Shown here in pieces: positions 12,584 to 17,342 of a DNA stretch of 17,342 nucleotides (its first letter is position 1; the number at the start of each line of letters is the position of its first letter). The notes under the pieces were generated by a model. The model saw only the letters and a list, made by a program, of their open reading frames with translations, did no database searches and had not been told where the DNA came from. The position numbers and the translations under genes were made by a program. The DNA lies in contig JAKAXI010000005.1 in assembly GCA_021816665.1 (NCBI GenBank), forward strand, positions 1 through 17,342, in the 5' to 3' direction. This stretch comes from Bacillota bacterium (GTDB lineage: Bacteria > Bacillota > Bacilli > Alicyclobacillales > Alicyclobacillaceae).

Positions 12584-13321
12584 ATGGCATCTGTGGAGTT
12601 CACACTGCAGAAAGAAGACTGGTCCCTGCACCGTAAGGGGCACCAAGACCAGGAACGTCACAGGGAAAAAGTGAAAGAAGCGATCAAGGAGAACCTCGCA
12701 GATTTAGTCAGTGAAGAGAGCATCATCATGACGGACGGGCGCCAGATTATTAAAATTCCGATCCGGTCGCTTGAGGAGTACCGGTTCCGCTACAACTTTA
12801 ACAAAAGCCGCCAAGCGGGCTCGGGTGACGGCGATTCACAGGTCGGTGACGTGATTGCAAAAGGGTCTCCCGAACAGGGCAAGCCAGGTGCGGGACAAGG
12901 TGCCGGCGACGGGCCCGGTCAGGACTACCTGGAAGCAGACGTCGCGCTTGAGGACATTGAACAAGTCTTGTTCAGCGAGCTCGAATTGCCTAACCTCGCA
13001 CCGAAGGCACCAGACCGCGTGGTGGCACAAGACATCGAGTTCCGCGACGTTCGGAAAAAGGGTCTCATGGGCAACATTGACAAAAAACGCACGCTCATCG
13101 AGGCCATTCGCCGCAACCAGAAGGAGGCCAGCGTACAGATACGCATTCTACCCGACGACCTGCGTTTCAAGACGTGGGATGAAATCGAGAAGCCCGATTC
13201 GAACGCTGTGGTTCTGGCACTCATGGATACGAGTGGTTCTGTGGACGCCACTGGATTTAATAAAGAGTGCGCTATCCCTGTGTCGGAAAGCGCTCCGCTA
13301 TTGCCAGTCCTTGTCCACTAA
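12584..13321 (+). CDS. yhbH: YhbH (DUF444) 5' part, interrupted by an intervening element
   Basis: Residues 1-219 (to 13239) are the N-terminal part of YhbH/UPF0229, starting MASVEFTLQKEDWSLHRKG. A Gly-rich linker lies at about 79-112, and the segment ends at DTSGS (215-219), the metal-binding (MIDAS) motif of its von Willebrand-A-like domain. The reading frame then enters the element and ends after about 26 foreign codons at 13321, so the unrearranged gene yields only a 245-residue truncated protein. The missing 3' part resumes at 17054 in the right frame. ATG at 12584 follows AAGGAGGGA. In B. subtilis yhbH is made in the mother cell under sigma-E and is required for normal sporulation. Type 'CDS' is used because the gene is judged functional after excision. 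Confidence 0.95.
   Translation: MASVEFTLQKEDWSLHRKGHQDQERHREKVKEAIKENLADLVSEESIIMTDGRQIIKIPIRSLEEYRFRYNFNKSRQAGSGDGDSQVGDVIAKGSPEQGKPGAGQGAGDGPGQDYLEADVALEDIEQVLFSELELPNLAPKAPDRVVAQDIEFRDVRKKGLMGNIDKKRTLIEAIRRNQKEASVQIRILPDDLRFKTWDEIEKPDSNAVVLALMDTSGSVDATGFNKECAIPVSESAPLLPVLVH
13219..13265 (+). other. Left attachment site (attL) of the yhbH intervening element
   Basis: The inferred crossover dinucleotide TC (13238-13239) lies inside the Ser219 codon. To its right is the element half-site: TGTGGACGCC, nine further bases, then AATAAAG (13259-13265) 19 bp from the core. The left side is yhbH sequence. The boundary was deduced from the reading frame of rejoined yhbH and from the symmetry of the element half-sites. 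Confidence 0.8.
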
Positions 13322-13480
13322 ATGAATGTGTGCCAACTGATCGCGAAATCCCTTGCGGAAGTTCTCTAGGTATTCGTTGCGCAGCGATTGTTGCTCTTCC
13401 AACTCTGCTGGTGTGAGCGGGGTTACTTTCGATTTTCGCGCCAATTCATTCAGTCGATTCAGCTTTTCCTTCTCGAGCAT
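13298..13480 (-). CDS. DUF896 family small protein (YnzC-like)
   Basis: This 60-residue protein resembles the DUF896/YnzC family: MLEKEKLNRLNELARKSK, then LTPAELEEQQSLRNEYLENF and RDQLAHIHLVD, two helices forming a hairpin. Family members in Bacillus are small cytoplasmic proteins of uncertain role, one of them in an SOS-linked operon. The ATG at 13480 is preferred because GCGAGGG lies 6 bp upstream; an ATG at 13498 would add six residues. It is slightly shorter than YnzC at the C-terminus. It is the leftmost gene of the element and reads toward attL. The host chromosome may have its own copy outside the window. Confidence 0.8.
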   Translation of the reverse strand: MLEKEKLNRLNELARKSKVTPLTPAELEEQQSLRNEYLENFRKGFRDQLAHIHLVDKDWQ

Positions 13481-13674
13481 GCCAATCCCTCGCTTCATGA
13501 TTCCACTCTGACATGGTGTTGGTATTTAGGTAGTGTGCCACAGATCCCGGCTGTCACTACGCTTCTTGTCGTTGCAGGAGAACGTCCAACAGAACTATGC
13601 CGGATGGTACCATAGTAGTGGAGTCGGAATACATGAGCAATCCGGCAAAGAAAACACCAGCTGGAGGTTAGGCG

Positions 13675-14658
13675 GTGCGGCACGTGGAGTCAAACATGGA
13701 CATTGAGGATCAAAATCCCCAACCGCTGTCCACGACGATCGAGTCTGCTCTTTCAACTAAAAAACTCGACCACTTTAAAGGTCTGTCGATGGTGCTGTTA
13801 GGTGCTGTCCTGTGGGGTGTTTCCGGGACTGCGGCACAAGTGTTATTCCAGCGCTACGGGTTTAACCCGGGCTGGTTGGTCACGGTACGGATGAGCGTGG
13901 CTGGACTCGTCCTGTTGGCTGGCGTGTCGATCAAAACAGGTCTGACTTCGACAGTTTCGGTGTGGAAGCACAAGCCAGACGCTCTGAAACTAGTCTTGTT
14001 TGGCATTGTTGGTTTGCTTGGGGTGCAATACTCGTATTTTGCAGCAATCCGCTACGGGAATGCTGCGACGGCAACGATGCTTCAGTACATGGGGCCGATA
14101 TTCATCACTGTGTATACTGCGTTGCACCAACGGCGGATGCCTAACGGCGTACAGACGGCGGCAGTTGCCATGGCATGTGTTGGCGCGTTTTTGCTCGTTA
14201 CTGACGGGAATGTTCACCGTTTTTCTGTTCACCCACAAGCAGTGTTTTGGGGGCTGGTGTCAGCTTTAGCGCTCGCATTTTACTCCCTCTATCCGCAACA
14301 CCTACTCCATAAATACGGCTCTGCCAACATTGTAGGTTGGGCAATGTTGATCGGTGGGATCGGTATGTCGTTCATCACTCCACCGTGGCATTTCACAGGT
14401 CATAGCTCGTTTGGAGCCTGGTGGCTCGTTAGCTTTGTCGTGTTATTCGGAACGCTCATTGCGTTCTATGTGTATATTGCGAGTCTCAAATTCATCTCCG
14501 CATCGGAAGCAAGTCTGTTGGCATGCGCTGAACCATTGTCCGCATCAATCCTGGCAGTTGCAGTTTTGCACGTACACATGGGATTAGCTTCAATGCTAGG
14601 CGGACTGTGCGTGCTGGTGACGGTGACACTGCTCGCCAGCAAACGGTCAGCGACGTGA
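13675..14658 (+). CDS. EamA-family (DMT superfamily) membrane transporter
   Basis: This 327-residue protein has about ten predicted membrane helices in two EamA repeats. The first has LSMVLLGAVLWGVSGTAAQ and RYGNAATATMLQYMGPIFI. The second has VFWGLVSALALAFYSLYPQ and FISASEASLLACAEPLSAS. EamA proteins are usually metabolite or amino-acid exporters; the substrate is not predictable. An N-terminal tail of about 35 polar residues precedes the first helix. GTG at 13675 is 7 bp after GGAGG (13663-13667). The gene is cargo of the intervening element, divergent from the DUF896 gene, and appears intact. Confidence 0.88.
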   Translation: MRHVESNMDIEDQNPQPLSTTIESALSTKKLDHFKGLSMVLLGAVLWGVSGTAAQVLFQRYGFNPGWLVTVRMSVAGLVLLAGVSIKTGLTSTVSVWKHKPDALKLVLFGIVGLLGVQYSYFAAIRYGNAATATMLQYMGPIFITVYTALHQRRMPNGVQTAAVAMACVGAFLLVTDGNVHRFSVHPQAVFWGLVSALALAFYSLYPQHLLHKYGSANIVGWAMLIGGIGMSFITPPWHFTGHSSFGAWWLVSFVVLFGTLIAFYVYIASLKFISASEASLLACAEPLSASILAVAVLHVHMGLASMLGGLCVLVTVTLLASKRSAT

Positions 14659-17016: not shown

Positions 17017-17025
17017 ACATCATTC

Positions 17026-17080
17026 CTTTATTCAATTCTGATGCGCCCATATCGATGGGGATGTTTGAAAAGTATTGCGC
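17026..17080 (+). other. Right attachment site (attR) of the yhbH intervening element
   Basis: CTTTATT (17026-17032) is the inverted copy of AATAAAG in attL and lies 19 bp before the TC crossover dinucleotide (17052-17053). To the right, yhbH resumes as GATGGGGATGTTTGAAAAG. The element-side half-site matches that of attL at 19 of 26 positions when read outward from the TC. Confidence 0.8.
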
Positions 17081-17342
17081 TCGTACCTTCTTCTTCTGGA
17101 TGACGCGGTTTTTGCGGACCAAGTACGACAACGTGCAAATCCGCTACATCGCGCACCATACGGAAGCCAAGGAGGTGAGCGAGGAGCACTTCTTTACACG
17201 TGGGGAGAGCGGGGGCACCATCTGCTCGTCGGCGTACGACTTCGCGCTACAGATGGTGGAGCGAGAGTACCCGACAGACCGTTACAACCTGTATCCGATT
17301 CACTTCTCAGACGGCGATAACCTTACTTCTGACAACGAGAAG
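17054..17342 (+). CDS. yhbH: YhbH (DUF444) 3' part, continuing beyond the window
   Basis: Starting one base into the frame, the sequence reads MGMFEKYCARTFFFWMTRFL, then YIAHHTEAKEV, FFTRGESGGTICSSAY and HFSDGDNLTSDNEK. This is the von Willebrand-A-like half of YhbH, with the rest of its metal-binding loops (the SGGT threonine and the SDGDN aspartate). It has no start codon context or ribosome binding site of its own and is only meaningful once joined to 12584-13239. The joined frame reaches residue 315 at the window edge. B. subtilis YhbH is about 392 residues, so some 75 residues lie outside. Confidence 0.95.

Follow-up and report, generated by a model that had tools for sequence, protein, structure and literature searches.

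Several sporulation genes of the mother cell are known to be split by DNA elements. The skin element, which carries a recombinase, interrupts sigK in Bacillus subtilis and Clostridioides difficile; vrin lies in spoVR of Geobacillus thermoglucosidasius and vfbin in spoVFB of Bacillus weihenstephanensis (PMC4191935; here and below, a PubMed Central (PMC) number stands for the available passages of a paper). Further described cases are gin in gerE of Bacillus cereus ATCC 10987 (PMC5595907), SPbeta in spsM (PMC6957869) and yin in yabG of Clostridium botulinum (PMC10747680). In B. subtilis, the gene for the skin recombinase, spoIVCA, is controlled by sigma-E and activated by SpoIIID, which also binds the yhbH region (PMC517825). 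Here we describe a split in yhbH, found in a 17,342-nucleotide stretch of DNA (the window) from a member of the Alicyclobacillaceae, where a 3.8-kb element with a large serine recombinase gene separates the two halves of the gene. Judging from the sequence, the recombinase probably recombines two TC-centred attachment (att) sites, and is predicted to do so in the mother cell, releasing the element as a circle and restoring the frame for sporulation.

Results

A 3.8-kb element divides yhbH within a serine codon

The window is contig C57 of a draft genome (2.07 Mb, 72.6% complete), and its nearest relative is the complete genome of Alicyclobacillus sp. ALC3 (G002). In the window, yhbH is cut in two at 13239/17054, with 3,814 bp in between, and both pieces (12584–13239 and 17054–17342) match DUF444. 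The parts of the split are as follows.

12584..13239, + strand: yhbH 5′ half (DUF444 match; frame and junction), its last bases being TC, bases 1–2 of the Ser codon in MDTSGS
13240..17053, + strand: intervening element, measuring 3,814 bp from one crossover point to the other on the shared-TC reading of the junction
15505..17016, + strand: large serine recombinase, 503 amino acids (Pfam Resolvase, Recombinase and Zn_ribbon_recom; relatives at the same place 53–89% identical)
17054..17342, + strand: yhbH 3′ half (DUF444 match; 94.5% nucleotide identity with G002), beginning with base 3 of the Ser codon and leaving the contig

The dinucleotide TC is common to both junctions (13238–13239 and 17052–17053), and an in-silico join of ..13239 to 17054.. 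gave 315 stop-free codons up to the contig end, across MDTSGS/MGMFEKY (the slash marks the break). A preliminary description of this DNA, made from the letters and their open reading frames (ORFs), had stated that the yhbH halves flank a serine recombinase gene and that joining them at a shared TC yields an uninterrupted frame; the DUF444 matches on both sides, the recombinase domains and the stop-free join bear this out, and its coordinates proved exact to the base. An assembly or contamination artefact was ruled out, the window and a second contig of the genome, C297, being collinear with G002: nucleotide identity was ~89% over most of the second half of the window (the comparison stretch starts at window position 6663), ~92% over most of C297 and 76–83% in mid-element. 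The yhbH 3′ half of G002 is whole and uninterrupted.

Matched core dinucleotides and a dyad mark the crossover

Large serine integrases use an attP site with an imperfect dyad around a 2-bp non-palindromic core. The window recombinase combines the Resolvase, Recombinase and zinc-ribbon domains that define this class and sits near the element end, 35 bases separating its stop from the right core. Two candidate att sites surround the element, with 25 bases on each side of the core as limits of our choosing.

13213..13264, + strand: attL, comprising host arm, TC core (13238–13239) and element arm (shared core, dyad test)
17027..17078, + strand: attR, comprising element arm, TC core (17052–17053) and host arm (shared core, dyad test)

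Across the loci of the survey described below, the core dinucleotide was the same left and right in all 20 in which both junctions were read, being TC in 17 and AG in three (G017, G543 and G691), which have an AGT serine codon at either junction. When the element ends were joined by script, as in the predicted circle, they formed an imperfect inverted repeat. For 18 elements, compared over arms of 22 bases (leaving out G037 and G602, whose halves lie on separate stretches), dyad complementarity was 0.614 on the core and did not exceed 0.328 at any of 33 other centres, while the host-side join had no peak on the core (0.255) and its maximum, 0.394, lay six bases off. The dyad centre thus locates the crossover at the shared dinucleotide without recourse to the reading frame. 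The joined element ends thus have the form of an attP, an imperfect dyad around a 2-bp core (TC, or AG in three), and, as in skin-like elements, attL and attR share a common core whose joining restores the frame: the joined frame was stop-free in 17/17 loci of the order, to the gene end, a second site (below) or the contig end.

These features bear on whether yhbH might be used as two separate polypeptides around a permanently fixed insertion. The 5′ half can indeed be translated to a stop within the element, and the 3′ half offers an ATG after the core (ATG GGG ATG); however, no ribosome-binding site precedes that ATG as judged by eye, the break falls inside the DTSGS motif, and matched cores, a core dyad and a conserved recombinase would be needless for a fixed insertion. 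We regard this as the least probable of the explanations weighed here.

The same codon is split repeatedly across the order and beyond

We termed the yhbH codon split in the window (DTSGS/MG) site A and searched for DUF444 in all 59 genomes of the order; the counts refer to the matches listed, which leave aside the weakest. Site A was split in 17 of the 59, with 13 in the window's family, f1 (G000, G002, G004, G007, G009, G010, G011, G017, G019, G022, G025, G028 and G062), and four in a sister family, f2 (G037, G047, G049 and G052; in G037 the halves lie on two contigs). Among these are Alicyclobacillus macrosporangiidus DSM 17980, A. ferrooxydans TC-34, A. mengziensis S30H14, a strain deposited as A. 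tolerans BL-1, A. dauci (G062) and Alicyclobacillus sp. SO9. In G041 the 5′ half stops at the site-A codon, making it one more probable split. Twelve genomes had yhbH interrupted at the second site alone, and 27 had uninterrupted frames only, although those of G008 and G014 may be a paralogue; G044 had no DUF444 among the matches listed, and G003 was fragmentary. The window's genus group also comprises G002 and G001 (A. cycloheptanicus), the latter broken at the second site only.

Beyond the order, a search of 398 class genomes for a Paenibacillus relative of the recombinase gave matches in 13 genomes outside the order. The DUF444 search there covered these 13, three of which, from two other Bacilli families, were split at site A (G543, with an element of 15.5 kb; G602, 54 kb; G691, about 16.5 kb). 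A separate search for recombinase orthologues beyond the order (E 1e-75; 398 genomes drawn from the phylum) matched only the window's own genome. With 17 genomes of the order and three outside it all interrupted at one codon, we rejected chance as the origin of the split. The G543 recombinase is 100% identical to a Brevibacillus laterosporus protein, and the joined G543 YhbH aligned without gaps, at 96%, to an intact YhbH recorded as B. laterosporus. An occupied and an empty site could also be compared: L172, a contig from a viral collection with a site-A recombinase, matched the uninterrupted yhbH of G051 across 1,408 bases with 93% identity, beginning 6 bases before the L172 core. An intact copy of the window's own yhbH was sought elsewhere as well; among the best 120 of 4,234 matches (7,998 candidates scored), no yhbH match of at least 90% occurred and the highest was 87%.

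Some further observations concern neighbouring or related genes. In L172 (IMGVR_UViG_3300025503_000160), the spoVR beyond the split yhbH breaks off at NEGWATY (~2220–3190), and the contig end holds another serine recombinase on the minus strand; in this prkA-yhbH-spoVR cluster two genes may have been hit at once. In L239 (G538) and L245 (G607), the gene immediately downstream of a related recombinase is small and is not yhbH (ETTVLKETVKFV...); it may be a further recombinase target. In addition to an intact yhbH, G529 has a broken second DUF444 stretch with three stop codons (L259; G529:C1:2383057-2383452).

Both halves of yhbH are under strong purifying selection

Across eight pairs of element-carrying species, w was 0.015–0.051 for the yhbH 5′ half (seven pairs measurable, one saturated), 0.011–0.030 for the 3′ half (six measurable) and 0.10–0.30 for the recombinase (six measurable), alongside 0.026–0.032 for intact yhbH of species without the element (3/4 pairs). 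Strong purifying selection thus acts on both halves. Since the 3′ half is constrained and has no evident start of its own, the whole gene is presumably rebuilt regularly.

The genome also holds a second, divergent prkA-yhbH-spoVR operon on contig C297 (L006), comprising the end of prkA2, an intact yhbH2 and spoVR; the match of C297 with G002 (92% at the nucleotide level) indicates that this paralogue belongs to the genome. The preliminary description had counted a second intact yhbH as evidence against its proposal; such a copy does exist, though as a divergent paralogue (49% amino-acid identity with the split yhbH) in an operon of its own. The finding raises the prospect that the split gene is a decaying pseudogene whose work is done by the paralogue, the more so as 10 other site-A genomes of the 17 have a second DUF444 gene among the matches listed, that of G011 being in pieces. 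None is listed, however, in the other six (G007, G062, G037, G047, G049 and G052), of which G062 is a complete genome and G047 and G052 are drafts 83% and 73% complete, and between the window genome and G002 w is 0.014–0.015 for both yhbH halves, so that a pseudogene seems very improbable.

The YhbH tree grouped G000/G002, G011/G028/G022 and G025/G004/G019. The recombinase tree kept the first and last of these groups and placed G011 and G028 together, with G022 nearby on an unresolved fork. At the same time, split and intact copies are intermingled over the whole gene tree to about the degree of shuffled labels, and G062 is split in a genus group, g5, whose remaining listed members have intact copies. 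Such mixing indicates that strict inheritance does not hold and that the element comes and goes; overall it seems to be both inherited and repeatedly gained or lost.

The element pairs a compact recombination unit with little cargo

Ahead of the recombinase lie a short ORF and a promoter-like motif, and the remaining features are cargo and the upstream neighbour of yhbH.

15243..15267, + strand: promoter-like motif GGACAA-N10-GCATACGGT, ahead of the small ORF (pattern conserved in f1 elements)
15290..15505, + strand: small ORF, 71 amino acids, candidate recombination directionality factor (precedes the recombinase in 13/13 f1 elements; the GTG start is our choice)
13298..13498, − strand: DUF896 small protein, cargo (Pfam DUF896; 89% amino-acid identity in G002)
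13675..14658, + strand: EamA-family transporter, cargo (Pfam EamA; 88% amino-acid identity to G002)
10575..12473, + strand: prkA, serine protein kinase, upstream neighbour of yhbH (Pfam AAA_PrkA and PrkA C-terminal domain; 98% amino-acid identity with G002)

The stop of the small ORF overlaps the recombinase start (TGATG). All 13 f1 elements have an ORF of this kind, with a W...E core and an end 12–137 bases before the YARVS motif of the recombinase, and we consider it a candidate directionality factor. Upstream, the pattern GACA[AT]-N8-13-GCATA was found in 11 of the 13 (vs. 0.05 expected from shuffles) and had no other same-strand occurrence in 150,854 bases. Its GGACAA part resembles what we take to be the SpoIIID consensus, for which a text search yielded nothing. 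CATATA-type sequences occur upstream of spoIVA in 7/10 and of spoIIIAA in 8/10 related genomes, the element having mostly CATA[CG]GGT, and the region upstream of prkA, read in 4/13 stretches, held nothing informative. A mother-cell promoter ahead of the small ORF and recombinase is plausible.

In the window element, Pfam matches were confined to DUF896, EamA and the recombinase domains, and Rfam gave nothing at the gathering threshold. Among ORF clusters of 15 compared elements, the EamA cargo is common to the window and G002 only. The stretch 14659–15230, between EamA and the small ORF, is without a conserved ORF and ~76–77% identical to G002 at the nucleotide level where aligned; it is possibly decaying cargo. 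The G002 version of the element measures 4,975 bp core to core, elements of the order span 2.5–8.6 kb (16/17, those with readable length), and that of G019, at 2.5 kb, is hardly more than a recombination unit.

A prophage occupies the same codon in another family

The 54-kb element at the site-A codon of G602 has phage genes inside (L267–L269). Ten long ORFs scanned in it matched families of virion proteins (portal, minor head and tail) and of enzymes (helicase, primase, exonuclease, DNA polymerase and a reverse transcriptase of the phage type), and there was a weak terminase match. The G602 recombinase is 54% identical to the Paenibacillus protein, which is itself 40% identical to that of the window. 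A prophage at the same codon with a related recombinase makes a temperate phage a likely ancestor, and the element likely derives from a phage that integrated at the yhbH codon and shrank to a recombination unit with little cargo.

That ancestry could be taken further, to an element that is precise and mobile but leaves in phage-like fashion (rarely, under stress or only at transfer), with yhbH rebuilt in a minority of cells. The prophage at the same codon would fit this, as would the coming and going of the split on the gene tree. We nevertheless consider it unlikely: elements of the order are short, those of f1 retain the recombinase and small ORF throughout and the promoter pattern in most cases, and the yhbH halves are constrained about like intact genes, as would be expected if the whole gene were in regular use. 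An excisable and regularly excised element is by far the best reading of the anatomy, core covariation, dyad and selection.

A second interruption site lies near the C terminus

In 18/59 genomes of the order, yhbH was broken near its end, at ...GE[VI]NQY/NRSSTLM, and six of these have both sites (G009, G010, G017, G037, G047 and G049). Ten of the 18 yielded the 3′ piece, its phase continuous with that of the 5′ piece; five others have a contig that stops before it, and the stretches read for G017, G043 and G054 did not contain it. In eight genomes the site is adjoined by a different serine recombinase of opposite orientation (G009, G010, G015, G037, G038, G047, G048 and G049), and the shared sequence is longer, AATCAATAC-like. 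The break recurs in other families (G543, G691, G495, G707 and G607). Examples are L084 (G001; 3389–11614), L121, L122, L123, L126, L086 and L073. On balance we lean towards yhbH being a recurrent multi-site rearrangement switch of Bacilli, with separate elements at DTSGS/MG and NQY/NRSSTLM, sometimes both, so that two mother-cell excisions would be needed before PrkA and YhbH act. Two elements in one gene appear to be new.

Discussion

In the proposed mechanism, a mother-cell promoter (the GGACAA...GCATA motif) would switch on the small ORF and the recombinase, which, with the small ORF product acting as a directionality factor, would act in the mother cell on attL and attR, both centred on TC, and recombine them. 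The element would leave as a circle and the YhbH frame would be restored, confining the function of the gene to spore formation, whereas the forespore copy would retain the element and pass it on. In B. subtilis, yhbH is under sigma-E control. Together with the SpoIIID binding cited above, this suggests by analogy, from B. subtilis and not from the window organism, that yhbH is a mother-cell gene; the sporulation timing and cell type of excision would likewise follow from what yhbH does in B. subtilis and from precedent. The preliminary description had proposed the same skin-like logic, in which mother-cell recombination rebuilds yhbH, and its proposal is supported by the matched cores, the attP-like dyad, the in-frame joins, the purifying selection and the gene and recombinase groups shared within genera.

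Several points weigh against this account. The contig stops at DUF444 position 352 of 418, so that the last part of the window yhbH lies outside view; the 3′ half was not found in G041, a genome given as 99% complete; and the C297 paralogue might buffer the loss of the split gene here. The split label changes nine times on the gene tree vs. a shuffled mean of 9.8, with 181/500 shuffles as low. The small ORF is poorly conserved (18–58% identity to that of the window), its pattern was not found in the seven other elements searched (G047, G052, G049, G037, G543, G602 and L172, a set without G691), and modelling of its fold gave a weak result (one helix, pTM 0.46). The promoter pattern was picked after viewing the same sequences and is missing in G009 and G062; the gap of the motif, read as −35/−10, is shorter than the 14–16 of the sigma-K motif in the passages of PMC517825.

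If the account is right, yhbH, a widely conserved gene, becomes one of the few sporulation genes known to be governed by DNA rearrangement, and does so on wide comparative evidence. Its repeated capture at two codons raises the question of why it is a preferred target, the constraint on 3′ halves without an evident start points to regular reconstitution, and the smallest elements would be compact excision units. The preliminary description knew of no described case in yhbH, and we found no description of an element in yhbH in the literature searched, which takes in few subscription journals; the terms searched for were absent from the main text of PMC12700454. Prophage-region proteins of Paenibacillus larvae include YhbH, in passages silent on any split (PMC9341999), and the prophage described in Alicyclobacillus sigK does not involve yhbH in the passages available (PMC13141910).

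Compared with the described systems, the yhbH element shares with skin a recombinase and the splitting of a mother-cell gene but differs in target (yhbH vs. sigK), in size (3.8 vs. 48 kb; PMC517825) and in that its excision is predicted. The elements vrin and vfbin likewise lie in mother-cell genes but in different ones; spoVR, the target of vrin, follows the yhbH paralogue in the window's genome. Like the yhbH element, gin is without phage genes and has a serine recombinase; its small factor, GirX, has a candidate counterpart in the small ORF. Yet gin spans 28.6 kb, with three recombinase genes and a 9-bp overlap, whereas the yhbH element has one recombinase and a 2-bp core. In spsM, a full prophage and short forms of 4–20 kb share one target, much as a 54-kb prophage and 2.5–8.6-kb elements do in yhbH, although the gene differs and yhbH has two sites. 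A candidate directionality factor is common to yin, where it came from modelling, and the yhbH element; excision was observed for yin and is predicted from sequence for yhbH. The kind of element is therefore already known from skin, vrin and gin, and yhbH appears to be new as its target.

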